Positions 18,085-38,949 of a DNA stretch of 39,218 nucleotides are shown here, piece by piece (position 1 is the first letter of the stretch; each line of letters opens with the position of its first letter). A program made the position numbers and the translations under genes. The notes under the pieces were generated by a model. It saw only the letters and a program-made list of their open reading frames with translations, was not told the origin of the DNA and made no database searches. Source of the stretch: Bacteroidota bacterium (GTDB lineage Bacteria; Bacteroidota; Bacteroidia; NS11-12g; UBA955); assembly GCA_013205405.1 (NCBI GenBank), contig JABMMZ010000102.1, positions 1-39,218 of the forward strand, written 5' to 3'.

Positions 18085-18163
18085 AATCTTAATATTTAAC
18101 GCATTATCTATCAATTTAGTATTCAAATTAAAACGGTAAAAATTATTTACATTATATAAAATA

Positions 18164-19045
18164 TTATTTAAATGCTCTAATCCAAGTGCATAAAGGCAAT
18201 TCAAACCCTTTGGTACTTGGCACAATGCATTCTCCCCATTCGGCATCGGTTTTATAATGGCATTTAAATAAATTACTGCCAATAGTTCCGCTTAGCCCCA
18301 TACTATAAAGATTGAGTAGCACAAAAAAATTACTTTTATCAGTAATACTAGCGCACAATTCAACTAGTTCATTCAGTTGTTCCTCTAATATCCACTTTTC
18401 GCCTCCAGGACCTCTACCGTATGCAGGTGGGTCTATAATAATACCTTGATAAATATTCCCTTTATTGGCTTGTCGTCTAATGTATTTTAGTGCATCTTCT
18501 ACTAGCCATCTTATTTCAGGCGCTTTAGATAATTGTCTATTTTCATTGGCCCATGTTACCACATTTTTTACTGCATCCAAGTGCGTAACATCGGCACCTG
18601 CATGGGCCGCTACTATGCTTGCCGCACCGGTGTAAGCAAATAAATTAAGCACCTTGCATTTACCACTTATGCGCTTTATTTGTTCATCTATAAAATGCCA
18701 ATTGCTTACCTGCTCTACAAATACTCCCAAATGTCCAAATGAAGTACAGGCTAATTTTAATGTTAAATTGAATGGCTTGTATTGAATTTCCCAATTTTTA
18801 GGCATTGGTTTAAAATATTGCCAACCGCCATTTTCATTATTTGTATCACGGTGACTTTTTTTGGTGTTATCTCTTTCAAATCGCGCATCAGCTAATTGTT
18901 TCCAATCTTTATCCCCTAATTGTTTTGGCCACAATGCTTGTGGTTCAGGTCTAATGAGGGTGTATTTACCAAACCGTTCTAGTTTTTCAAAATTACCGCT
19001 ATCTATCAATTCATAGTCGGGCCAATGCGGAATATTTTCTTTCAT
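18164..19045 (-). CDS. Class I SAM-dependent methyltransferase, RlmI/PF10672-like
   Basis: A 293-residue Rossmann-fold methyltransferase. The SAM-binding motif I VLNLFAYTGAAS lies at about residue 135, an acidic motif II at THLDAVKN, and the catalytic motif IV IIDPPAYGRGPGG at about 205. This combination is typical of the RlmI/RlmK-related 23S rRNA methyltransferases, but the N-terminal PUA domain of RlmI is absent and the N-terminus (PHWPDYELIDSG, RPEPQALWP) is of the shorter type. The exact rRNA position modified cannot be inferred. Cytoplasmic. No strong TAnnTTTG box is visible upstream. Confidence 0.82.
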   Translation of the reverse strand: MKENIPHWPDYELIDSGNFEKLERFGKYTLIRPEPQALWPKQLGDKDWKQLADARFERDNTKKSHRDTNNENGGWQYFKPMPKNWEIQYKPFNLTLKLACTSFGHLGVFVEQVSNWHFIDEQIKRISGKCKVLNLFAYTGAASIVAAHAGADVTHLDAVKNVVTWANENRQLSKAPEIRWLVEDALKYIRRQANKGNIYQGIIIDPPAYGRGPGGEKWILEEQLNELVELCASITDKSNFFVLLNLYSMGLSGTIGSNLFKCHYKTDAEWGECIVPSTKGFELPLCTWIRAFK

Positions 19046-21219: not shown

Positions 21220-21318
21220 ACTTTAATTAACGATTTTTATAGATAAAAAGTATATAAATCTTAAAAATAAATTAATTTTGATATGATTTAAGCATAGTAT
21301 AAAATACTAAAAAATGCT

Positions 21319-21326
21319 TATTTTTG
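21319..21326 (+). promoter_or_regulatory. -7 box (TATTTTTG) of the PPIase-moxR-nth operon
   Basis: TATTTTTG matches TAnnTTTG and predicts a leader of about 35 nt before the ATG at 21365. No clear -33 TTG at normal spacing. Confidence 0.4.
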
Positions 21327-21364
21327 TATCCTTTTACATAAAAATAGAATATAAAAATAATAAA

Positions 21365-23386
21365 ATGAAACGAATTGTAATTATTACATTTATGGTATTA
21401 TTAACCATAAATTTGAGCGCTCAAAAAAAAGGTAAGGATACCACACTTTTTACCTACGGCCCGAAAAAAGTAAGTCTTAAGGAATTTGATAGAGGATTTA
21501 GCAAAAATGAAAAACCAGGCACTAAACATACAGCCAAAGAAGTAGATGAATATTTAGAATTGTACAAAAAATTTAAATTGAAAGTACAAGATGCCTACGA
21601 TAGTGGCATTGATACTACCGAAGGATTTAAAAGCGAACTAGCTACTTACAGAAAGCAAATAGCCAAACCTTACTTAACTGATAGAATGGTGAACGACCGA
21701 TTGGTAAACGAGGCTTACGAAAGATTAAAATACGAAGTGCGTGCGAGCCACATATTAATATTTTTAAATCCTGATGCATCTGCTCCAGATTCGATAAAAG
21801 CATTGGCTAAAATAAATGATTTAAGAGACCAAATAGTAAGTGGAAAATTAACATTTGAAAATGCTGCCGAGACGTTTAGCGAAGATCCATCTGCTCGCGA
21901 TAACAAAGGTGATTTAGGTTATTTTTCTGCTTTTCAAATGATATACTCATTCGAAAACCAAGCATTTAGCACACCTGTTGATCAGGTCTCTAAGGCATTT
22001 CGCACAGAATTTGGGTACCATATTATAAAGGTATTTGATAAAAGAGAAAGCAAAGGTGATATTACCGTAAAACATATTTTATTACAAACTAACCCTGAAC
22101 CAAGTGCTGAGGAATTAGCAGAGGTAAAAGCCAAAGTAGATGAAGTTTACAAAAAATTAAAAGTAGGTGAAAAATTTGAAATATTGGTTAATCAGTATTC
22201 AGAAGATGTGCAAACAGCTATGTCAGGAGGAGAAATACCTTCTTTTTCTATGACAAATAGCAGAATGCCTGAAAACTTTAAAACTACTGCTTTTGGATTA
22301 CAAAATGATGGCGACTATAGTGCGCCTATTCAAACCCAATCAGGGTTTCATATTATCAAACGTGTATCTTTAAAACCTGTTTCTTCTTTAAAAGATATGC
22401 GTTCTACTATTCTTAATAAAATAAGCAGAGATGGTAGACAATATCGAAATACGTTAGCAGTGTTCAACAAAGCTAAAAAAATATATAAAGTAAAAGATAA
22501 TGCGAATAATTTAGCTAAGTATATGAGTCAAATAGACAGTTCATTGTTAAATGCTCAGTACCAATTTAGACCTAAAAATATGGCACAAAAGGATTTTGAT
22601 GCTTTAGCAAAAAATCCTTTGTTTACATTAGGTTCTAAAAGTAAATCTTTTACCGTTGCTGAATTTGGAAAATACCTTACTAGCTTTGAAAGACCATTTG
22701 ATAGCAAGGCTTTGAGTTCTTTAATTAATAAACAATACGAAGCTTTTAAAATGAATAGTGTTATGGATTATTACGAAAATGATTTAGAAAACACGAATGA
22801 TACTTTTGCTGCGCTTTACAAAGAGTATAAAGAAGGTATTTTATTATTTACACTTACTGATAAAAAAGTATGGACTAAAAGCGTTGAGGACACTATTGGT
22901 TTAAAGAATTTTTATCAAAAAAATATGGAGAATTATAAATACAAAGATAGATATGATGCTACTATATTTCGTTGTGCTAACAAGGCTGTTGCAGATGGCG
23001 TTAAGCGTGATTTAGATGCTGGATTAATAATAGATTCAATATCAAAACGTGCTAATAAAACTAGTCCTTTAAATTTGGCTTCAACAATCACTAATAAATT
23101 TGAAAAAGGTGATAATGCATATGCTGATATGTTATTTGAAACTGGTAAAACAGATACTAAATATTTAATTTTTGAAGATGCTAAAAACCCAGGTGGTTTT
23201 ATTGTCATCCAAATCCATAAATTTATATTGGCTGGTAAAAAATCTTTGAACGAAGCTCGCGGTCCAATTACAAGTGATTATCAAAATTATTTAGAAAAAG
23301 AATGGTTAGATGGTTTAGCTAAAAAATATCCAATAATATTAAACACAGCCATTTTTAATATTTTTAAAAATAGAATGGCAAAGTAG
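21365..23386 (+). CDS. Periplasmic peptidyl-prolyl isomerase with two parvulin domains
   Basis: I chose the ATG at 21365, which starts a signal peptide ending INLSAQ; upstream codons in the same frame lie in the promoter region. The 673-residue product has an N-terminal SurA-like helical segment, then two parvulin (PpiC) domains. The first is at about 127-227 (RASHILIFLN to GYHIIKVFDK) and the second at about 234-334 (VKHILLQTN to GFHIIKRVS). About 340 C-terminal helical residues complete it. Such proteins assist folding of outer-membrane and secreted proteins. It is the first gene of a five-gene unit, 1 bp ahead of the next. Confidence 0.88.
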   Translation: MKRIVIITFMVLLTINLSAQKKGKDTTLFTYGPKKVSLKEFDRGFSKNEKPGTKHTAKEVDEYLELYKKFKLKVQDAYDSGIDTTEGFKSELATYRKQIAKPYLTDRMVNDRLVNEAYERLKYEVRASHILIFLNPDASAPDSIKALAKINDLRDQIVSGKLTFENAAETFSEDPSARDNKGDLGYFSAFQMIYSFENQAFSTPVDQVSKAFRTEFGYHIIKVFDKRESKGDITVKHILLQTNPEPSAEELAEVKAKVDEVYKKLKVGEKFEILVNQYSEDVQTAMSGGEIPSFSMTNSRMPENFKTTAFGLQNDGDYSAPIQTQSGFHIIKRVSLKPVSSLKDMRSTILNKISRDGRQYRNTLAVFNKAKKIYKVKDNANNLAKYMSQIDSSLLNAQYQFRPKNMAQKDFDALAKNPLFTLGSKSKSFTVAEFGKYLTSFERPFDSKALSSLINKQYEAFKMNSVMDYYENDLENTNDTFAALYKEYKEGILLFTLTDKKVWTKSVEDTIGLKNFYQKNMENYKYKDRYDATIFRCANKAVADGVKRDLDAGLIIDSISKRANKTSPLNLASTITNKFEKGDNAYADMLFETGKTDTKYLIFEDAKNPGGFIVIQIHKFILAGKKSLNEARGPITSDYQNYLEKEWLDGLAKKYPIILNTAIFNIFKNRMAK

Positions 23387-23387
23387 A

Positions 23388-24245
23388 ATGCTTAAATCTT
23401 TTGCATCTATATTACTTTTAGTATTTTTTATTATAATACAATCCTGTAAATCAGGTGGTAAAGAGAATACTGATGGTGTATTGGCAGAAGTAAATGGTGT
23501 AAAATTAATTAAAAAGGACTTGCCTGAAGAGCTAATTAAAAAATTTGGAACAAATGATAGTTCTGGTTATTTGAAAGCCTATATTGACCATTGGGTAATA
23601 ACTCAGCTAAGCCTGAATGCAGCCAATGATTACTTAGATAGCGATGAAAAAAACAATTCTAAATTAATAGAAGATTATCAAAATTCTTTGGTTTTGTATA
23701 CTTATGAGCAAAAATTAATTAAAGAAAAATTAGATACCGCTGTAACAGAAAATGATATTGAAACGTTTTATACCAAGAATCAAAATACTTTTCAATTGAA
23801 AAAAAATATTGTTAAAATACGCTATGTCAAATTAAATATTAAGCAAGCTGATATTACTAAATTGAAAAGTTTAATGCAAAATCCTTCCATTTTAAACGAT
23901 TCTTTATTAAAAATAATGGTTGAAAAAGTAAATGCTGACAATTTTTACATAGATGATAATTGGCTTTATTTAGACGATATAACTAAAGAAATACCCTTAG
24001 ATGAGAATTATGATCAAGAGCGTTTTTTAAGCAATAATAAATTTATTAAAATTGAAGAAAACGGTGTTACTTATTTGCTTTACATTATAGATTTTAGAAT
24101 AAAAGATACACCTTCTCCTCTTTCTTTAGAAAAGGATAAAATTAAAGATATTTTATTATATCAAAGAAAATTGGAGTTTCTTAAAAACAATAAAACAAAC
24201 ATGCTGAACAAAGCATACGAGAATGGAAATGTTAAAGTATATTAA
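23388..24245 (+). CDS. SurA-like lipoprotein without an evident parvulin domain
   Basis: A 285-residue protein. The signal ends in the lipobox IQSC, so it is predicted lipid-anchored. After GVLAEVNGVKLIKKDLPEEL, which resembles the start of the SurA N-terminal chaperone domain, it is helical with VTENDIETFYTKN, the connector that normally precedes a parvulin domain. The following 110 residues (KKNIVKIRYVKLN) align poorly with parvulin and lack the usual HIL/GYHI signature, so isomerase activity is doubtful. It sits between two true PPIase genes. I infer a chaperone-only partner for outer-membrane or T9SS protein biogenesis. Confidence 0.7.
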   Translation: MLKSFASILLLVFFIIIQSCKSGGKENTDGVLAEVNGVKLIKKDLPEELIKKFGTNDSSGYLKAYIDHWVITQLSLNAANDYLDSDEKNNSKLIEDYQNSLVLYTYEQKLIKEKLDTAVTENDIETFYTKNQNTFQLKKNIVKIRYVKLNIKQADITKLKSLMQNPSILNDSLLKIMVEKVNADNFYIDDNWLYLDDITKEIPLDENYDQERFLSNNKFIKIEENGVTYLLYIIDFRIKDTPSPLSLEKDKIKDILLYQRKLEFLKNNKTNMLNKAYENGNVKVY

Positions 24246-24265
24246 ACGGAGTGTTAGATAAAATA

Positions 24266-25624
24266 ATGAAAGATATAAAATTTTGGTTCGTATTAATTTT
24301 GATTTTTACTGGCAATATTGTAAAGGCCCAGCCACCTACAAAACAAGTAATTGATGAAGTAATAGCAGTAGTTGGTAATACCCCTATTCTTCGTTCTGAA
24401 TTAGATATTATTATTTCACAAATGGATCCAGATATTTTGGTAACAGAGGAAATAAAATGTCAATTGTTCAAACGTCTTTTAACCGACAAAATGTTATTAC
24501 ATCAAGCTGAATTAGACAGTTTGCCTGTTACTGATCAAGAAGTGGATGATAAAATGGATAATAATTTACGTTTTTTTGAACGTCAAATGAATAGTAGATC
24601 TGAACTAGAAAAATACTTAGGTATGAGCATAGCTGAATATAAAAAACAATTGCGTTCTAGAGTTAAAAACCAAATGTTGGTAGAACGTATGGAACAAAAA
24701 ATACAAGGCAATGTAAAAGTAACACCTAAGGAGGTGAGAGCGTATTTCCAAAAAATTCCAACAGACAGTTTACCCTTTATTTCATCGGAGGTAGAAGTAG
24801 GACAAATAGTTATTAAACCTATTTACAGCAAAGAAGCCCGAGAATTGGCAAAAGAACAATTAGGTATTCTACGCGATAGAATAATGGCTGGAGAAAGTTT
24901 TAATAGATTAGCAGGCTTATATTCTGAAGACCCGGGTAGTAAAAAAACAGGTGGTCTTTTACCTGAATTTGGCAGAAATGACATGGTACCTGAATTTGAG
25001 CGTACTGCATTTACAATGAAAAAAGACAGTATTTCAGAAATAATTGAAACCAAATACGGTTATCACATTTTAAGATTGATAGATAAAAGAGGTCAACGTG
25101 TTATTGTAAGGCATATTTTAATTCGCCCGCGTATAATTGATACAGATATGGAAATAGCTAAATTTAAACTTGATTCTATTGCAGATTTATTAAACACTAA
25201 GAAAATATCTTTTTGTGACGCTGTAAAATATTATAGTGAAGATGAAGAAACTAAACCAAATTGTGGGTTTTTTACAGACCCTAATCTTGGCACTCAAAAA
25301 ATTCCATACGACTATTTAGACAAAGAAATGTCTGCAGAAGTTAATAAACTTAAACCTGGGCAATACAGTGCGCCAGCTATAGCTTTTGCGCCAGATGGTA
25401 GCGAATACTACCGTTTATTTTATTTAAAATCTGAAAGCAAGCCACATACCGCTAATTTAGAAAATGACTGGCAACGTATTCAATCGCTAGCATTGGAAGA
25501 TAAAAGAAAATCATCATTGGATATTTGGGCTGGGGAAGAAAGAAAAAATGTTTACTTTTATATTAGTTCTAATTACATTAAATGTGGCTTTTTTGATGAT
25601 TGGGTAACCGTAAAAAATAATTAA
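24266..25624 (+). CDS. surA: SurA-type periplasmic chaperone/peptidyl-prolyl isomerase
   Basis: The ATG at 24266 starts a signal peptide ending VKAQ; a GTG 15 bp upstream is possible but not needed. The 452-residue protein follows the SurA plan: an N-domain (VIDEVIAVVGNTPILRSELD), then parvulin domains at about 175-273 (GQIVIKP to YGYHILRLID) and about 283-385 (VRHILIRP), with a short C-terminal strand. SurA escorts unfolded beta-barrel proteins through the periplasm to the BAM complex. It is preceded by two related genes and followed 9 bp later by moxR. Confidence 0.9.
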   Translation: MKDIKFWFVLILIFTGNIVKAQPPTKQVIDEVIAVVGNTPILRSELDIIISQMDPDILVTEEIKCQLFKRLLTDKMLLHQAELDSLPVTDQEVDDKMDNNLRFFERQMNSRSELEKYLGMSIAEYKKQLRSRVKNQMLVERMEQKIQGNVKVTPKEVRAYFQKIPTDSLPFISSEVEVGQIVIKPIYSKEARELAKEQLGILRDRIMAGESFNRLAGLYSEDPGSKKTGGLLPEFGRNDMVPEFERTAFTMKKDSISEIIETKYGYHILRLIDKRGQRVIVRHILIRPRIIDTDMEIAKFKLDSIADLLNTKKISFCDAVKYYSEDEETKPNCGFFTDPNLGTQKIPYDYLDKEMSAEVNKLKPGQYSAPAIAFAPDGSEYYRLFYLKSESKPHTANLENDWQRIQSLALEDKRKSSLDIWAGEERKNVYFYISSNYIKCGFFDDWVTVKNN

Positions 25625-27353: not shown

Positions 27354-27454
27354 AACAATTGGCGGAAAGCATTAAAATGCAAAATCTTAGATAAAAGTTA
27401 AAGGTATTTTTTTTGAAAAATATTCCTACACAATAAAACAATTATTTATTTCGT

Positions 27455-27462
27455 TACTTTTG
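27455..27462 (+). promoter_or_regulatory. -7 box (TACTTTTG) of the glycan-acylation operon
   Basis: TACTTTTG matches TAnnTTTG and lies 33 nt before the ATG at 27496, predicting a leader of about 30 nt. No TTG at the usual -33 spacing is seen. Confidence 0.45.
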
Positions 27463-27495
27463 CAACACATTAAATTAATTTAAAAAACCTTTTAA

Positions 27496-28941
27496 ATGAA
27501 GCCAGTCAAAGTATTGTTATTTTTAGTTGTATGCCTTACTTGCGTTGGTTTAGTTTCTGTTATTTTTCCTAAAGAAGGCGTAAAATTGTGGGGCGAAACC
27601 ACTTTATCGTTTCCTAATCTGAAAGAAAAAATTTCGCCTAAAATAGATTCTACCTTAAGTGTAGCCAAACTAAAGGCTATTGAAGAAAAGAAATCATTGA
27701 CAGAAAAAAAGGAAGCCATTCTTAAAAAAGTACATAGAAGTAGTGCAGATACTTTGGTGTTAATGCAAGTAGTAGCTAGCGAAAGTCCTGCTAAATTTTA
27801 CTTTATGAACGATGATAGGTCGGTAATGGATAAGTTTTTTGCTGCTTTAGAAACCTCGCAACGCGATAATACCAGTTTTAGAATTATTCATTATGGCGAT
27901 TCTCAAATAGAAATGGATAGAATAAGTAGTTACCTTAGAGAACAACTGCAACGCAGCTATGGCGGCAGTGGCATGGGCTTATTGCCTGCATTAGAGGTTA
28001 CACCAAAATATACAGTAGCCCAAGAAAGCGAAGGTGGCTGGGCCAGAAAATTAGCTTTTGGCTCAGAAAGCGGCAGAGCTAAGCATAACCGCTATGGCCC
28101 TATGGGTTATTTTTGTCAAAAAGAAAGTTATGTAGCTAGTGTGGTTATTACAGCTAGAGAAAATACCAGTTATAAAAACAGAAATTTTAAACAATGTAAA
28201 GTTGTGGTAGGCGCCATAGACAAACCATTAGAAATAAGCATAGCAGCCAATGGCAAAGTAATTGAAAATCAAACTATACAAGCCAGTAATAGCGAACAGT
28301 TAGTTACTTTTAATGTTGATAGTGCCAAAGGAAAAATAGGACTAAAATTTATAGGATCTAAAGCAGATATATTAGGCATAGCACTTGATGGAACTAGCGG
28401 AGTGAGTGTCGATAATGTACCTATGAGAGGTTGCTCGGGTAATATTTTTAAACGTTTAAATGCAGAAACTTTGCGCAAAACCTACGACATGTTGGGTGTT
28501 AAAATGTTGATTTTACAATTTGGCGGTAATGCCTTACCTGGTATGAAAAGTAAAGCAAATGCTGAAGCGTATGGTAAAAAAATTTTAGAAGAACTTAATT
28601 TTTTAAAAAGTATAGATCCGGGCTTATTGCTATTTTTAATAGGACCTGCAGATATGAGCACCAAAATAAATGGCACATTACAAACGCATCCTCAATTAGA
28701 GAATGTGCGTGATGCTTTAAAAAATGCTACATTGCAAGCGGGTGGAGTATTTTGGGATATGTACGAGGCCATGGGAGGCAATGGCAGTATGATAGAATGG
28801 GTAAAGGCAAAGCCAAGTTTGGGTTCGCCAGATTATATACACTATACTCAAAAAGGGGCCGCTAAAATTTCTGAGATTTTTTATGCCTCGCTGATGAAAG
28901 AATACGAAATTTATAAATTAAAGAAAAAAATAGGTAGTTAA
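27496..28941 (+). CDS. Membrane-anchored SGNH-hydrolase-fold protein with large insertion
   Basis: A 481-residue protein. The N-terminal hydrophobic helix (about 5-24) lacks a clear cleavage site, so it is probably a signal anchor, followed by a charged coiled-coil-like stretch (about 55-80). SGNH block I is HYGDSQ with Ser136; block III is FGGN (Gly344, Asn345); block V is SPDYIHY with Asp446 and His449. About 200 residues separate blocks I and III, including a beta-sandwich-like insert (LEISIAANGKVIENQ). Families with this fold act as O-acyl esterases or as periplasmic acyltransferases alongside MBOAT proteins (AlgX, PatB type). As first gene of a unit containing an MBOAT and glycosyltransferases, it probably acts on a glycan's acyl groups. 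Confidence 0.8.
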   Translation: MKPVKVLLFLVVCLTCVGLVSVIFPKEGVKLWGETTLSFPNLKEKISPKIDSTLSVAKLKAIEEKKSLTEKKEAILKKVHRSSADTLVLMQVVASESPAKFYFMNDDRSVMDKFFAALETSQRDNTSFRIIHYGDSQIEMDRISSYLREQLQRSYGGSGMGLLPALEVTPKYTVAQESEGGWARKLAFGSESGRAKHNRYGPMGYFCQKESYVASVVITARENTSYKNRNFKQCKVVVGAIDKPLEISIAANGKVIENQTIQASNSEQLVTFNVDSAKGKIGLKFIGSKADILGIALDGTSGVSVDNVPMRGCSGNIFKRLNAETLRKTYDMLGVKMLILQFGGNALPGMKSKANAEAYGKKILEELNFLKSIDPGLLLFLIGPADMSTKINGTLQTHPQLENVRDALKNATLQAGGVFWDMYEAMGGNGSMIEWVKAKPSLGSPDYIHYTQKGAAKISEIFYASLMKEYEIYKLKKKIGS

Positions 28942-28961
28942 AAAATATCAGAAAAAAAATA

Positions 28962-30242
28962 TTGCGTCATTTTAAATTATATCTCCTTGGTTTTATTTGC
29001 ATAGGCAATTTTATGCTTTGCAATGGGCAAGAGGGTGCAGTAAATATTGACCGTTATCCTTTTGTGAATTATGATTTAAACACCGTTCAGTTTTTTAAAG
29101 ACAGCCTTGATTTTTATGGTTTTTTTAGAAAAATAGATAAATTAGTAACTACAGGAAAAGGCAAAGTAAATATAGTTCATTTTGGTGGCTCGCATGTACA
29201 AGCGGATATGTGGACCGGAAAAATTAGAGAAAATTTTAATCAATTTTTAAATCAAAAACAAGCAGCCAGAGGTTGGGTTTATCCATTTAAAATAGGTATA
29301 AAAAATAATAACAATCCGAGTAATTATGAATTTACATCTACCGGCAGATGGGATGGGTGTAGGGCTGTAAATACTTCTTGTACAGGTAATATAGGTATGA
29401 ATGCCTTGGTAACCAATACCCATGACTCTTGTGCCAGTTTTACTGTTAATTTATTAAGAGGTGCTAAAACAGATTATGTATTTGATAGAGTTAAGGTATT
29501 TTATGATAACCATTATCAATGTTTTAATTTGCAAGTAGATTCTGCCTATTCAGCTAAAGAAATAATAGACAATAAAGAAGCAGGTTACAGAGAATTTATA
29601 TTTGAAAAACCTATGCATACGGTTACCTTTAAATGTAATAAAACGGATACATTACAAAATACATTTACACTATACGGCTTATATACTGACCTAGATGCAC
29701 CAGGAATAAATTATAATGCCATAGGAGCCAATGGCGCTAGTATTCCTACGTATTTAAAAAGTAATATGTTAGAAAGAGAATTGGCTGTTTTAAAACCAGA
29801 TTTAATTATTTTTTCTATTGGTATAAATGATGCCTTTTCAAGTGAATTTACACAATTAGGATTTGAAAGAAACTATGAAGAATTAATTAAAAAAATAAAG
29901 AAAGTAGCACCTAATGCAGCTATCTTATTTACTACCAATAGCGATAGTTATAAAAAAACCAGAAAAGGTAGATTCTATCAAAATATTACTGGACTAGAGG
30001 TAAAGTATGCCATGCGAAATTTGGCTTATAAATACAATGGTGGTGTTTGGGATTTGTTTTCTGTAATGGGAGGATTAGGAAGTATTGAGTTTTGGGCTAG
30101 AAATGGCATGGCTGCTAGCAGAGATAGAGTTCACTTTAGCGCTAAGGGTTATCAATTATTAGGCGATTTAATGTTTGTGGCTATCATTAGAAAATATGAA
30201 GAATATTTAAAATTACCAATTGCAAAAATTAAACATGATTGA
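28962..30242 (+). CDS. Secreted SGNH-hydrolase-fold protein with large insertion
   Basis: A 426-residue protein beginning at TTG 28962. This start is required to retain the signal peptide (RHFKLYLLGFICIGNFML, cleaved near NGQ); the next ATG would delete most of it. SGNH block I is HFGGSHVQ with Ser77, so the usual GDS is GGS. Block III is SIGINDAF (Gly287, Asn289, Asp290), and block V is DRVHFS with Asp388 and His391. As in the preceding gene, about 200 residues separate blocks I and III, with a beta-rich insert. It lies 20 bp after the first SGNH gene and overlaps the MBOAT gene by 8 bp. It is probably periplasmic, working with the MBOAT in transferring or removing acyl groups on a glycan. 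Confidence 0.8.
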   Translation: MRHFKLYLLGFICIGNFMLCNGQEGAVNIDRYPFVNYDLNTVQFFKDSLDFYGFFRKIDKLVTTGKGKVNIVHFGGSHVQADMWTGKIRENFNQFLNQKQAARGWVYPFKIGIKNNNNPSNYEFTSTGRWDGCRAVNTSCTGNIGMNALVTNTHDSCASFTVNLLRGAKTDYVFDRVKVFYDNHYQCFNLQVDSAYSAKEIIDNKEAGYREFIFEKPMHTVTFKCNKTDTLQNTFTLYGLYTDLDAPGINYNAIGANGASIPTYLKSNMLERELAVLKPDLIIFSIGINDAFSSEFTQLGFERNYEELIKKIKKVAPNAAILFTTNSDSYKKTRKGRFYQNITGLEVKYAMRNLAYKYNGGVWDLFSVMGGLGSIEFWARNGMAASRDRVHFSAKGYQLLGDLMFVAIIRKYEEYLKLPIAKIKHD

Positions 30243-31905
30243 AAATTTAATTCAAATAATTAAAACCTTCTTTCAATACAAAGAAAATGAACCCATTTTT
30301 TTTACTGAGATAGTATTTTGGATATTTTTTACAGCCGTATTTTCTATTTTTACTATTGTATATAAAAAGTACACTTGGCGAAATCTCTTTCTTTTTATCG
30401 TTAGCATATTTTTCTATTATAAAACAAATGGTGTCTTTTTTGTCCTTCTTTTATTTAGTATTACCAATGAGTATTTTGTAGCTAAGGCTATTTATAAAAG
30501 TAAGAATATTTCAAAACGAAAAATTTTAATTGCTTATAGTGTTATTTTAAATTTAGGTTTATTGTCTTATTTTAAATATGCCTACTTTTTTACGGATAGT
30601 TTTAACCAAGTATTTGGAACCAATAATCAAGTTATAAACTATTTTGCATTATGGAGTAATACCATCAGCGGTGGGCATTTAAATGTAGATAAAATAATTT
30701 TTCCTATTGGCATTTCATTTTACACTTTTCAAATACTGAGTTATACTTTGGATGTATATAGACATAAACTAAAACCATTGAATAACATTTTAGATTTGGG
30801 GTTTTATGCTACCTTTTTTCCTCAAATATTAATGGGGCCTATAGTAAAAGCGCGCGATTTTATTCCACAATTATATAAGCCTTATAAAATTAATGGTTAC
30901 TTTTTTGGATTAGCCATATTTATGATTCTAAATGGTTCAATTAAAAAATTAGTATTTGGCGATTATATGGCCGCTAATTTTATAGATAAAATTTTTGGCA
31001 ATCCTTTATTATTTACTGGTGTTGAGAATCTTTTGGCAGTTATAGCCTACTCCATGCAAGTGTATTTAGACTTTTCTGGATACACAGATATTGCTATCGG
31101 CATAGCCTTGCTATTAGGCTATAAATTTAAGGCTAATTTTAACTCTCCTTATAAAGCTAAAAGTGTTGCAGAGTTTTGGAAACGTTGGCATATTTCGCTT
31201 TCTAGTTGGTTGCAAGAATATTTGTATATTCCACTTGGAGGTAATAAAAAAGGCACTATTGCCTCCTATTTTATTATTACTATACTTACAGTTTTTATTG
31301 CATTAATGCTAGATGCTATTATTGTACTATGGATAGTTTTAGGTCTTACCATCGTTTTAGGAATTCTCTCATTTATTTATCCTAATGTAAAAAAAGCAGT
31401 TAATACCAATGTCAATTTGATGATTACAATGCTTTTAGGCGGATTGTGGCATAATCCTAAAATTACATTTTTAATATGGGGTGGCTTGAATGGTTTAAGC
31501 TTAGTGGTTTATAAATTTTGGAGAAAAATAAGCCCTTATCAAAATATAAATAAATGGTACGTCAATACATGGAAAATATTTATAACTTTTATATTTATTA
31601 CCTTTACGCGTATTTTCTTTAGGGCAGATGATATGGCTCAAGTAAAAGAAATATTTGATAAAATAATGTATGATTTAAATTGGAGTTATGCACCTGCAAT
31701 AATTGCTAATTTTTGGCTTGTATTTTTATTCTTAGGATTAGCTTTTGTTATTCATTTATTGCCAGAAAACATTAAATGGAATTATAAAAAAATATTTATA
31801 AAAATGCCTGTAATTGCCAAAATTGCTGTTGTTCTTGTTTGTATTTTTTTTATATATCAAAGCCTCAGTAGCGATTCTGTAAAATTCATCTACTTTCAAT
31901 TTTAA
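30235..31905 (+). CDS. MBOAT-family membrane O-acyltransferase (AlgI/DltB type)
   Basis: A 556-residue polytopic membrane protein with about 11-13 hydrophobic segments. MBOAT signatures are ILMGPIVKARDF, MQVYLDFSGYTDIAIG, EFWKRWHISLSSWLQEYLY (His319) and GGLWHNP followed by FLIWGGLNG. In AlgI and DltB the last motif is WGxxHG, and its His is taken to be catalytic; here that position is Asn419. A hydrophobic insert (TVFIALMLDAIIVLWIVLGL) lies between the two motifs. The protein should carry acyl groups across the membrane to the SGNH partners. I chose the ATG at 30235 over the TTG at 30220. Confidence 0.85.
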   Translation: MIENLIQIIKTFFQYKENEPIFFTEIVFWIFFTAVFSIFTIVYKKYTWRNLFLFIVSIFFYYKTNGVFFVLLLFSITNEYFVAKAIYKSKNISKRKILIAYSVILNLGLLSYFKYAYFFTDSFNQVFGTNNQVINYFALWSNTISGGHLNVDKIIFPIGISFYTFQILSYTLDVYRHKLKPLNNILDLGFYATFFPQILMGPIVKARDFIPQLYKPYKINGYFFGLAIFMILNGSIKKLVFGDYMAANFIDKIFGNPLLFTGVENLLAVIAYSMQVYLDFSGYTDIAIGIALLLGYKFKANFNSPYKAKSVAEFWKRWHISLSSWLQEYLYIPLGGNKKGTIASYFIITILTVFIALMLDAIIVLWIVLGLTIVLGILSFIYPNVKKAVNTNVNLMITMLLGGLWHNPKITFLIWGGLNGLSLVVYKFWRKISPYQNINKWYVNTWKIFITFIFITFTRIFFRADDMAQVKEIFDKIMYDLNWSYAPAIIANFWLVFLFLGLAFVIHLLPENIKWNYKKIFIKMPVIAKIAVVLVCIFFIYQSLSSDSVKFIYFQF

Positions 31906-31922
31906 AAATTTGAAAAAAAAGT

Positions 31923-32885
31923 ATGCGAATAAATTACTTAAGTTATGGCATAATAAATACAGGTGGATTTTATCATGAAAAATGTTTATTTGATACTTTA
32001 ACTAGCTACTATGGAAATGAGGCAGAACTTAAACTCATTCGAAAAAATAAACTTTATAAGCATTTTTTTGATTATATTAAATTATTAGTATTTGGTTTTG
32101 TAAATAGCAATGCAAAAATAAACTTAGTAGTAAGCAGGATAGCGTTTTCAGCAATTCTAAGAAATTTATTCACTCAAAATGAAGTTTGGGTAGTTCTTCA
32201 TAATTTCGATAACTCAGACGCTAAAAGTAAACTAATGAAAATTTATTATGCATTCCTATTTAAAATATTGCGAAGGGTAAAACATAATAGGTTTAAAATA
32301 ATTGTTGTTGCAGATTATTGGGTTACTTATTTTAATAAAACACTTGGCCTAAAAAATGTACATATTTTCCCCAATTTTCTTGATTTAGAAAAGTATTCTC
32401 ATTATAGTAAAGAACCAAATTCCAAAAAAATACATCTTGGTCAATTTAGCACTAAAAATGATAAAGCTATATTTGAACTTGCAGAAAAATTAACTAAACA
32501 AAATTACGACTGTTTTTTTACTACATTAAATAAAAATGAAATTTTAAAAACAACCAATTATAGCATACTCTATTTTGGTGCTTTTGAGGCTTATTTGCAA
32601 GCAATAGCAGATTGCAAATGCACACTCGCCCTTACAAATATAAATGAAGGTTGGAATAGAGTAGCACATGAAAGTATATTATTAAAAACACCTGTTATTG
32701 GTTATAATAAAGGAGGTTTGGGTAATTTATTAACCGACAGTAATAGCAATATTATAAGTTCTACCGATGAGGTATTTAAAATAATTATTGATAATAACTT
32801 TTCTGTAATTGACTCAGATTTCATAGAAAAATATAGTACAATAAATGCAAAAAAATATTTAATGGAGATATGCAAGAGCCTTTAG
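31923..32885 (+). CDS. Glycosyltransferase, GT4-like (GT-B fold)
   Basis: A 320-residue cytoplasmic protein. The C-terminal part has the GT4 E-x7-E motif (Glu242 and Glu250 in NEGWNRVAHE), followed by LLKTPVIGYNKGGLGNLL, typical of nucleotide-sugar binding retaining GT-B enzymes. The N-terminal half (NYLSYGIINTGGFYHEK, WVVLHNFDNSD) would bind the acceptor. It is shorter than most GT4 enzymes but has both halves. It lies 17 bp after the MBOAT gene and overlaps the next glycosyltransferase by 16 bp. The donor and acceptor sugars cannot be deduced. Confidence 0.75.
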   Translation: MRINYLSYGIINTGGFYHEKCLFDTLTSYYGNEAELKLIRKNKLYKHFFDYIKLLVFGFVNSNAKINLVVSRIAFSAILRNLFTQNEVWVVLHNFDNSDAKSKLMKIYYAFLFKILRRVKHNRFKIIVVADYWVTYFNKTLGLKNVHIFPNFLDLEKYSHYSKEPNSKKIHLGQFSTKNDKAIFELAEKLTKQNYDCFFTTLNKNEILKTTNYSILYFGAFEAYLQAIADCKCTLALTNINEGWNRVAHESILLKTPVIGYNKGGLGNLLTDSNSNIISSTDEVFKIIIDNNFSVIDSDFIEKYSTINAKKYLMEICKSL

Positions 32886-33835
32886 TTTCCATATTAATAG
32901 CTGCCTATAATGCAGAAAATACTATTGCAGAGGCAATTGATAGTTGCCTTGAACAAAGTTATAAAAACATTGAAATAATAGTGTGCAATGATGGCAGCAC
33001 GGACGATACCTTACATGAAATAAATATTGGAAATAGCGAAAAAATTGAAGTGATAAACCATGCAAGTAATAAAGGTATAGCGTATACTAGAAATACCCTA
33101 TTAAAGGCTTCAAATGGTGAATACATTGCCTGGTTAGATGCTGATGATTTTATGGATGAAACACGTATTGGCGAACAATTAAATTATATGTTAGCCAATC
33201 CAACAATTGATATTTGTGGCAGTTGGGTGATGCTGGTAGGTAAAAATGGATTATCAGATCTTAAAAAACTTCCTACTAATTCTAATTTTATTAAAGCACA
33301 TCTCTGGTTTAAAAACTGCTTAGTACAACCCAGTATTTTTAGCAAAAACTTTTATAAAACAGAAAATATTTTCTATAATCCAGATTTCGATTATATGGAA
33401 GATTATGAACTATGGGTAAGGTTAAGAAACACGAAGCAATTTTCGAATATTGATAAGTACTTAACCTATTATACCAAGCCTGATAATAAAGAGTTAGAAG
33501 CTAAACATATTAAATATAGATTTAATGAAAAACAAGCTAAATTATGGGAAATAAAATGGCAAGAAATACCTAACAATTTAGGCAAAGAGGCAAAGAAAAA
33601 TTTTCAATTGTTCCTTAAGGTTAACAAGAAACTTAATGCTTACGAAATTAATGATATACTGCGTTGCTTGAAGGCTATAGAAAATAATGATGTAAATAAA
33701 GAATTAAATAGTTTCATTCAATACCATAGGTTTAGAGTATGGAAAAATGGGGGTTTAGTTTATAAAATTAAAAACTTAAGAATATTACTTAAAACTTTTT
33801 CATTCTTAAAATTCAAACAAGAAAATAATATTTAA
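32870..33835 (+). CDS. Family 2 glycosyltransferase (GT-A fold)
   Basis: A 321-residue GT2 enzyme. It begins with VSILIAAYNAENTIAEAIDSCL, continues with IEIIVCNDGSTDDT, and has the metal-binding DADD (90-93) within YIAWLDADDF. The acceptor region contains EDYELWVRL (catalytic-base ED). No membrane segment is present, so it works on a nucleotide-sugar and a lipid-linked or nascent glycan at the inner membrane face. The ATG at 32870 lies inside the end of the preceding gene, with a GGAG six bases upstream; this is one of the few Shine-Dalgarno-like sites in the window and supports coupled translation. It ends the operon. Confidence 0.88.
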   Translation: MQEPLVSILIAAYNAENTIAEAIDSCLEQSYKNIEIIVCNDGSTDDTLHEINIGNSEKIEVINHASNKGIAYTRNTLLKASNGEYIAWLDADDFMDETRIGEQLNYMLANPTIDICGSWVMLVGKNGLSDLKKLPTNSNFIKAHLWFKNCLVQPSIFSKNFYKTENIFYNPDFDYMEDYELWVRLRNTKQFSNIDKYLTYYTKPDNKELEAKHIKYRFNEKQAKLWEIKWQEIPNNLGKEAKKNFQLFLKVNKKLNAYEINDILRCLKAIENNDVNKELNSFIQYHRFRVWKNGGLVYKIKNLRILLKTFSFLKFKQENNI

Positions 33836-33852: not shown

Positions 33853-36800
33853 TCACTGTTCGCGAATGAGTTGAATAACCCCATTCAATATTGGTTCATC
33901 TTTATCTTTCCCTTTGTATCTATAATTCAAAATATAATAGTAAGTGCCATCCGGACAGTCTTCTGCTACATTTCTTACCATGCCATTCCAATCATAAGCT
34001 TTATCAGTACTTTCAAACACCAATACACCCCATCTGTCGTATATTTTTAAATCATATTTTTCTTCCCCTTTTAAATAAATATTAAAGTAATTATTCCCTT
34101 CTAATCCATCTTTATCTCTGCTTACAAAACCATCTCTAGCACCTGGTGTAAATACATTGGGAGGTAGGATAGCTCTTTCATAAGGGTTTATTATTTTTTT
34201 GCAAATGGTATCCTTACATCCTAAAGCATTGATAGCCTCCAAACAAATCCAATTTTCCCCTAGATTATTAAAGAAAGATTCACATATTTTTCTATCAGGT
34301 TCATTTTGCTGAGCATTTTCTAGAAAGGCTAATTTATTTTTTACAATATCTTTACTATGAAAAAAGCCCCAACGGTACTTTACACCAAAACTAGACGTAT
34401 TGTTAAAACAATAAATAGGTGCTCTGGATTCATCTATATCAAAATTTGCTATTATGCTATCTGTATAAACCATTATGCTATCTCTACTTGGACAAACGAG
34501 TTTATTTAGTCCATTGGTATCTGCGGAAAAATAAATTTTAAAAGCACCAAATCTATTCAATCTATATTTTTTTTCTAAACTATTATTTTTATCTATTATT
34601 TGTTTTTCAAATTGCCAATTATAGTTTGAATATGTATTAGTAGAAGTTATTATAGCTACTATTTTTAAAGTATCACCAACACATACTATATTTGGTATTG
34701 CTTGCAATTGGTAGGTATCATAAGGCAAAACAGTAATTTTTATTTTATTTAAAGTATCAGGGAAAGTTTCTGAACAATATTTACCTGTGCCTTTTATACT
34801 ATCATTTTGTGTTAAATAAACAAAAAATACGCCTGTTTTTCTATATTGATGCGTTATATATCCGGTGTCATATTGTGGTTCAAAAATACCGTCACCATAG
34901 TTCCACAACCATTGTGCAGAGGGGGTAGCATTTTTAGATATATTATGAAACGTTATGCTATCATTTACACATATTATATGCGATTCATTAATTTCAAATT
35001 TTGGTTTTGGTCCTGGCAGGTCTACTTCTTGAAAAGTGGAATCTACACATCCTAAAATTGTGGTTACGATTAGCCATATTTTGAAGGTACCATTTTTTGT
35101 AAAATCATGCCCAATTTGTTTTGGCAGTTGTTTATTAAATGAAGCGTCTGGGCTTCCATCTCCCCATCTAATGGTCCAATTAATAATATTATCACATGTT
35201 GGCAAGCCTCTAATTTTACAAGGATCCATAATATAGGATGTGTCAAAAAGCTCAACTATTGTTTTGCAATTTGGCGCTCTAAAATCAAGAAAAAAGGCTG
35301 CCTTAGGACCCATCACATATATATTTTGTGGTATCGTATCTCTACATCCTAAACTATCGCCCATAGTAACTCGTAATTGATATAATCCAGAAGATTTATA
35401 ATAGATGCCACCTGCTTCTTTTCCTAAAGAAATTAATGGATTACCTAAGCCTATTCGCGCATAAGGCATACCGCCAAAAATAGTTTGTAAATTTGCTGTA
35501 TTATCATCTGCCTTGCTAAAATCCCAAACTGTTTGCGCCTCAAAACCTGTCTGTCCAGCTTTCGATTCTCTAATTTTCCAATAATCTATAGAATCTATAG
35601 AACCAAAGTTAGAATCTCGGGTGTCGTAATATCTAAATTTAGTACTTGCATCAATTGTATTACCTTTACATATTATACTATCATTAAAGGTGATTTCTGC
35701 ATTAAAACCTGCTATAATACTTTTATCATTTGCTAATGGGCAAAATGTTGGATAAATACTTTCAACATTTCTTACTACTCTATATAATCCTCTTTTCTTA
35801 ATATAAAAACCATATGCTTTATAATTATTTGAATTTACGCTTATAGAATCAAATGGTAATAAACTGCTGTCTTTATAATGCAAAATTGTGGCATTTGTAA
35901 CATCATAATCAAAAAAAAGTGTGCTGCCAATACCAGTAGTATCAATACATCCTTTACTACCACTCAATGGATTACCAATAACACCCACACCATTCCATAT
36001 AAGATCTACAATGGTAGTATCATCATAATCTGCAATTGATAATCCTATTTTGGATAATTCCTCTCTCAGTCTATTATTTCTACTGCCCATTAAAAGGTGT
36101 TTTCTATGCCTGTGGACTATGGCTGTAAAAATGGTATCCGTTTTATTTAAAACAACATTGCCATTGTTATTTTTATATCTATCTATTACGGTATAATTTA
36201 CTTTCTGACTAGGGTATTTATAATGATTTTGAATATTATAATAATTCTCTATAATCATTTCTAAAGTATCACCAGCCGAATTTAATAAATACCAACTACT
36301 TGAAGCTGCTAATTTATTACTATTATTTTCCCGTTGTGGTATGATGGCATAAACAGTTGTTTGAGGACAAATGTACTTTGATTTATTTTTTTCTCGTCCT
36401 AGTAATTCTAAATTTGCAGAAAGTCTTGGAAAGTTAGCAAAACTAGGGTAATATACAGTATCTACGCAATAATTATCCGGCTCTGTTCCATTGCCAATAA
36501 TTAAAGCAAGATTTACATTTTGTATATTTTTTTCCAAAAAGTCAGTATCATGATATGAATTAAAAAAAACGCTGTTAAAAGCTCCTTCTAAATTATACCC
36601 GCTATAAGGGCCATTTCTTCTGGTAAAAGAGTTTCTGTATACTTCTCCTCCAAACTCATCATGAATAAGTTTATAATCATTGGGGGTTTTTAAATAGTTA
36701 AAATTTATTTTAGCAAATGATTGTGTGCATCCTGGTTTGGTATCTGACAATGAAAGCTCAATAACCTTATTATTATACCCATAACAATAATGATCTTCAA

Positions 36801-38949
36801 TATACAAGCCTTTAGCTGATGGTGGTTGTAAGGCAATTGAAGAAGAACTTTCACTTATGCATTTTAGTGGGTGTAGTGTGTCTTTTTCTATCAATCTTAT
36901 AATAAAACAAGCGGGTATTTTATTATAAAAAAATTGTCGATGCATGGCTGCATTCACAGTATCCAAGCTTGTTAAATTTGGTATTTTTATTTTTTTTATA
37001 ATTTTATGAATTCCTAATATTCCTGAAAGAGGTATGGTATCTTTATTAATTTTTAATGCATATAAAAAATAGCATTTATCTGTTTTGCTCTTAGAAATAA
37101 TTGAATATAAATTAGGTGCAATTTGTGTTTTAGGGCCTATCACTCTTATTTGGCTACTCCCATCATTTTTATCCAAATAAATAGTATCATTGTTTGGCAC
37201 ATAAATCCATAGATTATGTGGTGTTAAAGTTTCACCTTTACCAAATAATCCTGAAGGTATTTTTTGCTTTCTTAAGCCTGTAAAAATGATGCTGTCTTTA
37301 CTTCTATTGCCCATTGAATTATCTCCGTAATATAGAATTGTATCTGTAACAATGTATAAGCTATCGCTTGCAAATACTTTAATTTTTGAACATGTTTTAG
37401 TTTTAAAATCAAACATATTTTTATAAAAAAATTGAGTGCTATAGGTATACTTATAAATAGAATCCCAAGGCGTATACCAATGGCTTGGAGCAAACTCTCT
37501 GCTGTATCGACAATTTAGCCAAGTATTTCTATTGGCTTTTATATCAGTGGTACAAGCCTCACAATAAGTATCTCCAAAATCCCACAGACGTACAACATTT
37601 TGATTAGACCTAATATTTGGTATGTTTAGAAGACTTTTATTTGCTTTAAAAACATGTCCTAAATTGCCTGCCTGTTTGTTAAATAAACTATCATCATCAA
37701 GCATATTTCTATCATTATGATAAAATTCACTTTTATCTGAAAAACGCACTGTGTCTTTAATAATGCATTGATAACGTTCTCCAAATTCAATAAAATTAAA
37801 AGATTTTTCTATTTTACTTATTGGGCCAATTACCGTTACTGTGTCGGTTAATACATAAGGTCCGCATGGGTGACTCACTGTGCAAACAATTAGGTGTGGG
37901 CCTAATTCTCCATAACCATGCGTACCATTGTATTCCCTTTGAAATCCTGGATTAAAATTCCATGCTATATTTCCTAACGGCACATAGTTTTCTATACCCT
38001 TGGGCAAAAGTTTAAAAGTAAAAGTATCGCCTGAACAAAAAGAATCTCTTGAAATTTTAATGCTTGGTTTTAAATTGTAAAGTACCACTTCATCTATTTG
38101 AAATATTTTTTTACAACCAATTTTTGTTATTATTTCCAACCTGGGATTATAAATACTTTTAATTTGACCACTATTTGTATAGTCGTGTTTTACACTATCC
38201 CAATTTAAACTATCAGAAGTACCATCTCCAAATATCCATTTAAAACTTTTAATGTCTGAAAGCCTTACTTGTGATTGGTTTTTAAAATTAGCCGTTGCAA
38301 AACCTGAACAAGGATTGCCTTGAAAGGTAAAACTAGCAAAAAGTGTAGGCGAAAATTGTACTTTTAATAATTGAGGGTATGCGTATTTTGTAATGCATCC
38401 ATTGCAGTCTTCTATTTCAACTAATAGAGAACTGGCACTGCCTTGGGGGTCATAAAAGGTTTTGCAAATAGTAGCTGGCAATTTAACAGGCTTAAATTTG
38501 GTGCCATATTTTGTAATCAATTCATTATCACTAAATAAATATTTGATAAATTTGATACAATAATCGCCATCGCCCGAAAGACTTGAATCTTGAAAACAAA
38601 ACACATTACCCTCAAAACATTGAATAGAATCTGATAATAATTTTATTCTTACTTGGGGTTTTGGTTTTACTGTAAGAGTTACTGTGCTTTTACAACTGCT
38701 ACCATTAGGCAATGTACAAGTATAAGTTATTGTTTTAAAGCCCGAAGTTCTAAATATAAATATTGGTGTAGGAGTGGTATTATTGTTTCCTTCGTTATTA
38801 AAATTCCATTGTTGATTACTGGGTCCTTGAGCACTTGCATAAAATTGGATTGGATTATCTATACATGCCAATCCTGTGTATGATGCCACACATTGTCCTT
38901 TTAAAATAAAAGTACTTAAAAGTAGAATATATAATAGAATGTTTCTCAA
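33853..38949 (-). CDS. Giant PKD-rich T9SS type B (gliding-motility-type C-terminus) surface protein
   Basis: A 1698-residue secreted protein. The start is a TTG at 38949: an in-frame stop lies 12 bp upstream and the signal peptide (RNILLYILLLSTFILKGQ) begins right there. PKD-type beta domains are visible at about 20-95, 203-290, around 456 (LWDFGDTYC), about 1250-1310 (TIRWGDGSPDAS) and about 1325-1400 (LWNYGDG). The final ~100 residues (ILPPNVFTPG, LKIYDRWGVLVFEST, DWNG, DGTYYYILNY, GVIQLI) are the type B T9SS sorting domain of gliding-motility-associated proteins. Cysteines are numerous. The protein is probably a surface adhesin or structural protein. It is convergent with the glycosyltransferase operon. 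Confidence 0.88.
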   Translation of the reverse strand: MRNILLYILLLSTFILKGQCVASYTGLACIDNPIQFYASAQGPSNQQWNFNNEGNNNTTPTPIFIFRTSGFKTITYTCTLPNGSSCKSTVTLTVKPKPQVRIKLLSDSIQCFEGNVFCFQDSSLSGDGDYCIKFIKYLFSDNELITKYGTKFKPVKLPATICKTFYDPQGSASSLLVEIEDCNGCITKYAYPQLLKVQFSPTLFASFTFQGNPCSGFATANFKNQSQVRLSDIKSFKWIFGDGTSDSLNWDSVKHDYTNSGQIKSIYNPRLEIITKIGCKKIFQIDEVVLYNLKPSIKISRDSFCSGDTFTFKLLPKGIENYVPLGNIAWNFNPGFQREYNGTHGYGELGPHLIVCTVSHPCGPYVLTDTVTVIGPISKIEKSFNFIEFGERYQCIIKDTVRFSDKSEFYHNDRNMLDDDSLFNKQAGNLGHVFKANKSLLNIPNIRSNQNVVRLWDFGDTYCEACTTDIKANRNTWLNCRYSREFAPSHWYTPWDSIYKYTYSTQFFYKNMFDFKTKTCSKIKVFASDSLYIVTDTILYYGDNSMGNRSKDSIIFTGLRKQKIPSGLFGKGETLTPHNLWIYVPNNDTIYLDKNDGSSQIRVIGPKTQIAPNLYSIISKSKTDKCYFLYALKINKDTIPLSGILGIHKIIKKIKIPNLTSLDTVNAAMHRQFFYNKIPACFIIRLIEKDTLHPLKCISESSSSIALQPPSAKGLYIEDHYCYGYNNKVIELSLSDTKPGCTQSFAKINFNYLKTPNDYKLIHDEFGGEVYRNSFTRRNGPYSGYNLEGAFNSVFFNSYHDTDFLEKNIQNVNLALIIGNGTEPDNYCVDTVYYPSFANFPRLSANLELLGREKNKSKYICPQTTVYAIIPQRENNSNKLAASSSWYLLNSAGDTLEMIIENYYNIQNHYKYPSQKVNYTVIDRYKNNNGNVVLNKTDTIFTAIVHRHRKHLLMGSRNNRLREELSKIGLSIADYDDTTIVDLIWNGVGVIGNPLSGSKGCIDTTGIGSTLFFDYDVTNATILHYKDSSLLPFDSISVNSNNYKAYGFYIKKRGLYRVVRNVESIYPTFCPLANDKSIIAGFNAEITFNDSIICKGNTIDASTKFRYYDTRDSNFGSIDSIDYWKIRESKAGQTGFEAQTVWDFSKADDNTANLQTIFGGMPYARIGLGNPLISLGKEAGGIYYKSSGLYQLRVTMGDSLGCRDTIPQNIYVMGPKAAFFLDFRAPNCKTIVELFDTSYIMDPCKIRGLPTCDNIINWTIRWGDGSPDASFNKQLPKQIGHDFTKNGTFKIWLIVTTILGCVDSTFQEVDLPGPKPKFEINESHIICVNDSITFHNISKNATPSAQWLWNYGDGIFEPQYDTGYITHQYRKTGVFFVYLTQNDSIKGTGKYCSETFPDTLNKIKITVLPYDTYQLQAIPNIVCVGDTLKIVAIITSTNTYSNYNWQFEKQIIDKNNSLEKKYRLNRFGAFKIYFSADTNGLNKLVCPSRDSIMVYTDSIIANFDIDESRAPIYCFNNTSSFGVKYRWGFFHSKDIVKNKLAFLENAQQNEPDRKICESFFNNLGENWICLEAINALGCKDTICKKIINPYERAILPPNVFTPGARDGFVSRDKDGLEGNNYFNIYLKGEEKYDLKIYDRWGVLVFESTDKAYDWNGMVRNVAEDCPDGTYYYILNYRYKGKDKDEPILNGVIQLIREQ

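Follow-up and report, generated by a model that had tools for sequence, protein, structure and literature searches.

We studied a window of 39,218 nucleotides (contig JABMMZ010000102.1, assembly GCA_013205405.1) from the draft genome, 84% complete, of a bacterium of the Bacteroidota (GTDB lineage NS11-12g; UBA955). Its plus strand carries five closely spaced open reading frames (ORFs), which encode two proteins of the SGNH fold (here called SGNH1 and SGNH2), an acyltransferase of the MBOAT family and two glycosyltransferases (GTs), one of them GT4-like and the other of family GT2 (Table 1). An earlier note, made from the DNA letters, had described these five ORFs as one unit. Recomputed coordinates agree with it: when MBOAT is started at the ATG at 30235, neighbouring genes are 20 and 17 bp apart or overlap by 8 and 16 bp. 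Its family assignments also stood in Pfam for the GDSL/SGNH, MBOAT and GT2 genes, with SGNH1 below the cut-off of the model, and the GT4-like call is a weak one. Our results indicate that the first three genes probably form a unit for peptidoglycan O-acetylation and de-O-acetylation (OAP), which is a known kind of system.

Table 1. Features of the gene cluster, with positions in the window (aa, amino acids).
Feature	Position	Strand	Size	Basis and remarks
Promoter-like element TTCGTTACTTTTGCA (predicted)	27449-27463	+		consensus element, TAnnTTTG at 27455
SGNH1	27496-28941	+	481 aa	Lipase_GDSL_2, E 1.3e-4 (Pfam; below its cut-off)
SGNH1 inserted beta-rich domain (~aa 174-309)	28015-28422	+		model secondary structure; matches CBM35-like insert of Ape1
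SGNH2	28962-30242	+	426 aa	TTG start; Lipase_GDSL_2, E 8e-15 (Pfam)
SGNH2 inserted beta-rich domain (~aa 122-255)	29325-29726	+		model and structural alignment
MBOAT acyltransferase, PatA-like	30235-31905	+	556 aa	ATG start at 30235; PF03062, E 6.6e-17
MBOAT hydrophobic insertion (aa 345-391)	31267-31407	+	~47 aa	ahead of catalytic H406
C-terminal acyl-shuttle motif FIYFQF (Y553)	31885-31902	+		FxYxxF pattern of PatA-type MBOATs
GT4-like glycosyltransferase	31923-32885	+	320 aa	weak family call, best E 0.003, below cut-off
GT2 glycosyltransferase	32870-33835	+	321 aa	PF00535, E 5.3e-32

Conservation of the first three genes is apparent from 80 named loci, which were chosen from genome contigs by similarity to SGNH2 and which cover Flavobacteriales, Bacteroidales, Marinilabiliales, Cytophagales and Chlorobiota. 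The order SGNH1-SGNH2-MBOAT, on one strand and mostly with gaps of no more than a few bases, was present in 69 of these loci; some of the others are cut by contig ends. The same order was found in all 12 loci of the window's genus for which full flanks were available (L033-L044). An MBOAT gene clustered with SGNH genes in this way has previously been described as ape1b-ape1c-pat for Bacteroides thetaiotaomicron, Bacteroides fragilis and Porphyromonas gingivalis (Weadge et al. 2005, PMC1199599), and the window shows this arrangement. In a phylum-wide sample of 99 genomes, searched at E 1e-30, SGNH1 was found in 22 and SGNH2 in 12, which implies that the presence of the system in the phylum is patchy. 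One locus has a single SGNH1 gene followed by two MBOAT genes in tandem (L174:6752-9717).

Both SGNH proteins are closest to peptidoglycan O-acetylesterases of the Ape1 type. In PDB searches, with single sequences as well as with profiles, they grouped with the enzymes of Neisseria meningitidis (4k3u) and Campylobacter jejuni (8gkd/8gld), which were the best PDB matches of the SGNH1 and SGNH2 profiles (E 4e-25 and 3e-50). AlphaFold models of SGNH1 and SGNH2 had a mean predicted local distance difference test (pLDDT) score of 84 and 90, respectively, and the same two Ape1 enzymes were their top Foldseek matches. With VIA-align, N. meningitidis Ape1 was superimposed on the SGNH1 model over 342 residues at 2.8 Å (Z 35.7) and on the SGNH2 model over 348 residues at 2.9 Å (Z 38.0); for C. 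jejuni Ape1, Z was 31.5-32.1 with SGNH1 and 35.7 and 35.4 with SGNH2. All other rows had Z values of about 18 or below for both proteins. The earlier note had named AlgX and PatB as the structures to compare. PatB resembled SGNH1 at the level of the fold only (Z ~13-14), and its chains were not among the best 50 VIA-align matches listed for SGNH2, where lower ranks are still possible. The DUF459 model, which represents PatB, gave no match to SGNH1 and 16.6 bits to SGNH2 (cut-off 27.2). The ALGX domain of Pfam had no match in either protein at E 0.1, and a kinship with AlgX/AlgJ was rejected for lack of Pfam support.

The structural alignments to Ape1 take in the beta-rich domain that is inserted in both SGNH proteins. 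The corresponding domain of N. meningitidis Ape1, which lies between blocks I and II, is a CBM35-like module (PMC6174289, PMC9487903). The distance from the catalytic Ser to the block II Gly is ~180 residues in SGNH1 as well as in SGNH2, so that the earlier note was right to call both of them insertion-bearing. Its claim that two such SGNH proteins are without precedent in known systems does not hold, because the insert is a known feature of Ape1 and the ape1b-ape1c-pat cluster was already described in 2005 (PMC1199599).

The active sites of both proteins are well conserved. Residues S136, G312, N345, D446 and H449 of SGNH1 are invariant in 105 of 105 sequences, and S77, G258, N289, D388 and H391 of SGNH2 are kept in 110-111 of 111. 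Because these residues are invariant or nearly so, both proteins are probably active enzymes. They share with the Ape1 family the SGNH fold with its inserted beta-rich domain, the catalytic Ser, the block II Gly, the block III Asn and the Asp-x-x-His motif. Agreement with the Ape1 motifs as defined in 2005 is partial. Motif I is GDSQ in SGNH1 and GGSH in the SGNH2 of the window (GDSH in many SGNH2 relatives), which both depart from GDS(H/F), and of the two forms of motif VII, DYIH in SGNH1 and DRVH in SGNH2, only the latter conforms to Dx(V/T)H. SGNH2 retains Ape1-like G(D/G)SH and NGA blocks, and SGNH1 has GDSQ and RGxSG. Since the definitions of 2005 fit only in part, we do not apply the labels Ape1b and Ape1c to these proteins.

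The earlier note had described both SGNH proteins as exported. For SGNH2 this agrees with a cleavable-looking signal peptide, as read from the sequence, and SGNH2 is likely a soluble periplasmic Ape1-like protein. SGNH1 has a transmembrane-like hydrophobic segment at residues 3-23 (peak hydropathy 3.0) with no obvious cleavage site, and it is better called a putative membrane-anchored protein than one exported with a cleaved signal. This anchor is followed by a linker of ~110 residues and by the SGNH core, which starts at about residue 127 and has the block I Ser at residue 136. In the named loci, the block I Ser of SGNH1 has a median position of 137.5, and block I of SGNH2 is at 80. No further SGNH2-like protein was found in the source draft genome.

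The MBOAT protein, the sole MBOAT found in this draft genome, resembles PatA-type enzymes in its sequence. It belongs to PF03062, has invariant His residues and ends in an FxYxxF motif, here FIYFQF. Residues H319, H406, Y553 and F556 are invariant in 19 aligned homologues, and FxYxxF forms the C-terminal end in 67 of the 71 MBOATs of the named loci. The motif Tyr of C. jejuni PatA receives an acetyl group from acetyl-CoA, and a peptide with the motif in acetylated form can serve N. gonorrhoeae PatB as its donor (PMC12148441). The best named model was DltB, which scored 117 bits at a cut-off of 375; D-alanylation of the DltB type was rejected because this score is so far under the cut-off. The hydrophobic insertion of the window MBOAT extends the spacing from FWKRWH to GGLWH to 82 residues instead of 35. 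It was rejected as an oddity specific to the window, since 68 of 91 homologues have it in common, most of the others being without it.

In contrast to the three-gene core, the GT pair has a narrow distribution. Within the genus, GT4-GT2 follow MBOAT in 9 of the 12 full-flank loci (L036-L044, with GT2 not recognised in L040), and among the 80 named loci the pair was present only in the five from this genus. Conserved synteny across Bacteroidota, which the earlier note had named as a check, extends to SGNH1-SGNH2-MBOAT and not to the GTs. In the closest relatives (L033-L035 and L047), the pair does not follow MBOAT; it occupies another site in the genome (L166, L167, L169), and the GT4 of genome G004 lies on other contigs. 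The GT4-like gene is unlinked from the cluster in G004, G006, G007 and G015, and GT2 adjoins it at the unlinked sites L166, L167 and L169 too. The GT pair also appears to evolve faster than the core, with identities among relatives of 35-49% for the GTs against 57-78% for the core proteins (44-49% between the GT4-like protein and its linked and unlinked orthologues in the genus). GT4-GT2 is probably a separate two-gene module that shares a transcription unit with the cluster in the window's genus, rather than a part of the core machine. The five-gene unit was ruled out because the GT pair is located elsewhere in close relatives. Hence, glycosyltransferase genes that adjoin an MBOAT-SGNH unit need not be parts of it, which calls for caution in reading such neighbourhoods.

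The genomic context offers further information on the target of the cluster. In five other genera of the family, SGNH2 orthologues carry C-terminal LysM domains and still lie beside MBOAT. In family f2, of the same order, SGNH1 is preceded by an amidase-family gene and by a gene for a LysM-bearing SLT transglycosylase; the arrangement of SGNH1 with the transglycosylase was found by Pfam in L159 and L160, and L161-L163 have similar ORFs. The lytic transglycosylase LtgA of Neisseria binds Ape1 in a complex, and the two enzymes stimulate each other (PMC7083599). Moreover, both B. fragilis and B. thetaiotaomicron O-acetylate their peptidoglycan, the levels reported for the two species being 27% and 69% (PMC1199599). 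The LysM fusions, the lytic transglycosylase neighbour and the Ape1 homology, together with the ape1b-ape1c-pat precedent, suggest that peptidoglycan is the likely target. The earlier note had proposed a surface or secreted glycan, perhaps linked to type IX secretion or to the capsule, for which no support was found. Its more general view, of an MBOAT that acylates an envelope glycan with SGNH partners, appears to be right in the light of the sequences and models.

Peptidoglycan O-acetylation controls lytic enzymes and lysozyme resistance. From the observed ORFs, motifs, fold, catalytic residues and synteny we infer a possible substrate, acyl group, chemistry and division of labour. The PatA-like MBOAT would take acetyl groups from cytoplasmic acetyl-CoA and load them onto Tyr553 of the C-terminal FIYFQF. 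A periplasmic SGNH protein would accept the acetyl group on its catalytic Ser and pass it to peptidoglycan, where the acceptor is presumably the C6 hydroxyl of N-acetylmuramic acid. The second SGNH protein, acting as an Ape1 esterase, would strip the acetyl group, so that lytic enzymes can act. Of the two, SGNH1 would more likely fill the transferase role of PatB, and SGNH2 that of the O-acetylpeptidoglycan esterase.

This division of labour is suggested by several observations. One of the Ape1-fold SGNH proteins probably acts as acetyltransferase, because PatB/DUF459 was not found in the source genome at its 84% completeness. We favour SGNH1 for this step because the combination of an anchored and a soluble SGNH protein recurs among the clusters. 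PatB has an N-terminal transmembrane helix as anchor and a long linker to its SGNH domain, a layout that only SGNH1 shares. In L186 and L187, SGNH1 overlaps or abuts MBOAT on one strand and SGNH2 is convergent on the opposite one, so that the co-transcribed partner of MBOAT is a gene other than SGNH2. Loci L183-L185 have SGNH1-MBOAT with SGNH2 after them, and loci of family f16 (L173, L175, L177) combine SGNH1 and MBOAT with a short soluble GDSL protein, without SGNH2. Where SGNH1 is missing, other anchored proteins were found. In L164, this is a DHHW/AlgX-type protein beside SGNH2-LysM; the DHHW family includes a known O-acetyltransferase. In L056 (5122-6192) and L057 (4145-5143, minus strand), anchored SGNH-like proteins that Pfam leaves unassigned lie beside MBOAT and SGNH2. 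They are possible substitutes for SGNH1, and a PDB search with the one from L056 gave no match. Within the OAP reading, an anchored SGNH1 transferase with a soluble SGNH2 esterase is therefore the assignment towards which we lean, and the reverse one is less likely, at somewhat above one chance in three. For Bacteroidota in general, we can say more tentatively, at slightly less than even odds, that the transferase might be an anchored Ape1-fold SGNH1 instead of PatB/DUF459, the esterase being its soluble paralogue SGNH2 and both going back to a single ancestor within one operon, and that elsewhere the anchored slot might be taken by other SGNH-type proteins.

Several findings weigh against this picture. 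Block II has Gly, which is typical of esterases, in both SGNH1 and SGNH2; PatB has Ser or Asn at this position, and neither protein has such a residue there or a DUF459 match above the cut-off. The block II Gly does not tell transferase from esterase, since both proteins have it, and was dropped as a criterion. A segment of ~100 aa after motif I, which is said to be absent from Ape1c, is present in every SGNH2 aligned (span 166-211). Furthermore, the MBOAT of f2 is adjoined by SGNH2, while SGNH1 sits with the lytic transglycosylase, and the f2 SGNH2-MBOAT pair adjoins genes for a sugar-phosphate isomerase and a nucleotidyltransferase, which would be compatible with another glycan. The separation in f2 favours an explanation in which the peptidoglycan system is the same and the roles are swapped, SGNH2 being the acetyltransferase that works with MBOAT and SGNH1 an anchored esterase. 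The binding of Neisseria Ape1 to LtgA (PMC7083599) would fit such a placement of SGNH1 behind a LysM-bearing lytic transglycosylase, and SGNH2 lies directly before the MBOAT gene in most loci. Yet, SGNH2 is soluble, several genera have it fused to LysM, and its motifs are the most similar to those of Ape1, whereas SGNH1 is anchored, has a co-directional MBOAT neighbour in L186 and L187, and accompanies MBOAT and a short soluble SGNH protein in f16, where SGNH2 is missing. We consider swapped roles rather unlikely.

Two further explanations concern the acyl group, the polymer and the GTs. The cluster might add a non-acetyl acyl group to peptidoglycan, or modify a different periplasmic polymer. 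However, the window cluster has neither an acyl-activating gene nor a DltC-like carrier, its MBOAT bears its own FxYxxF, as in the acetyl-CoA-using PatA, and O-acetylated peptidoglycan is known from Bacteroides that have the clusters described in 2005 (PMC1199599). What speaks for this explanation, to which we give the lowest probability of all, is DltB as the best named model of MBOAT, though far below its cut-off, the sugar-nucleotide genes beside the f2 pair, and an AMP-binding acyl-activating enzyme that lies between SGNH1 and MBOAT in f16 (L178:7066-8787, by Pfam). ORFs sized like this enzyme are present in L176, L180, L181 and L189, and it could mean a different acyl group in the f16 relatives. 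Hardly more probable is the single pathway of the earlier note, in which the GTs would build a surface or secreted glycan that MBOAT and the SGNH proteins acylate. The tight spacing in the window and the position of the GT pair after most full-flank clusters of the genus are consistent with it, and MBOAT-SGNH systems of the literature also modify alginate, cellulose and secondary wall polymers. Still, the other named loci lack the GTs, the closest relatives have them at unlinked sites, and they are less conserved than the widespread core; no polymerase, flippase or exporter was found among the family-scanned genes of the window, and the type IX secretion-type neighbour has the opposite orientation and varies between relatives.

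The start of the unit at 27455, as given in the earlier note, coincides with the conserved TAnnTTTG of the promoter-like element. The block TTCGTTACTTTTGCA upstream of SGNH1 is kept in 8 of 10 genus loci inspected, and its core TTACTTTTGCA in a ninth. A generic sigma-70 scan found more sites in shuffled sequences than in the real sequence and carries no information here. Beyond the GTs, on the strand opposite to the cluster, the window encodes a PKD/CHU_C protein of 1698 aa that carries a type IX secretion signal (33853-38949, minus strand); in the closest relatives, a 2428-aa plus-strand ORF stands in its place, directly after MBOAT. Elsewhere in the window, we observed a CAP-domain protein of 825 aa (15805-18282, minus strand) and two PPIC-type prolyl isomerases, the second SurA-like, which flank a 285-aa protein without Pfam match (21314-25624). 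This isomerase group is located upstream of MoxR and Nth.

The Bacteroidota form of the OAP cluster was listed in 2005 on the basis of sequence only, and in the open-access papers searched we found neither enzymology of it nor an assignment of its acetyltransferase. An anchored and a soluble SGNH protein for each MBOAT would give a direct prediction of the gene for each step, and the comparative pattern could reveal how a transferase evolved from an esterase fold. Among known systems, DltB-DltD-DltX D-alanylation is similar in its MBOAT family and in the logic of its acyl-Tyr shuttle. It differs from the window, where MBOAT itself bears the shuttle motif and the cluster has no carrier or acyl-activating gene. 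Alginate O-acetylation by AlgI/AlgJ/AlgX likewise combines an MBOAT with periplasmic SGNH acetyltransferases, whereas the SGNH proteins of the window have no ALGX match in Pfam and both match Ape1. The OAP cluster of Bacteroides and Porphyromonas, compared here by its published description (PMC1199599), comes from the same phylum and has the same order of two Ape1-family SGNH genes and then MBOAT. In contrast to that description, in which Ape1c is without the inserted segment, SGNH2 of the window has it, the motif I sequences are GDSQ and GGSH instead of GDS(H/F), and two GT genes follow. The patA-patB-ape1 operon of Neisseria and Campylobacter likewise has one MBOAT ending in FxYxxF with one anchored and one soluble SGNH protein, and the fold and insert of its Ape1 are common to SGNH1 and SGNH2. 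It differs in its PatB, of which the source genome has no DUF459 match; in the window, the anchored partner is an Ape1-fold protein.

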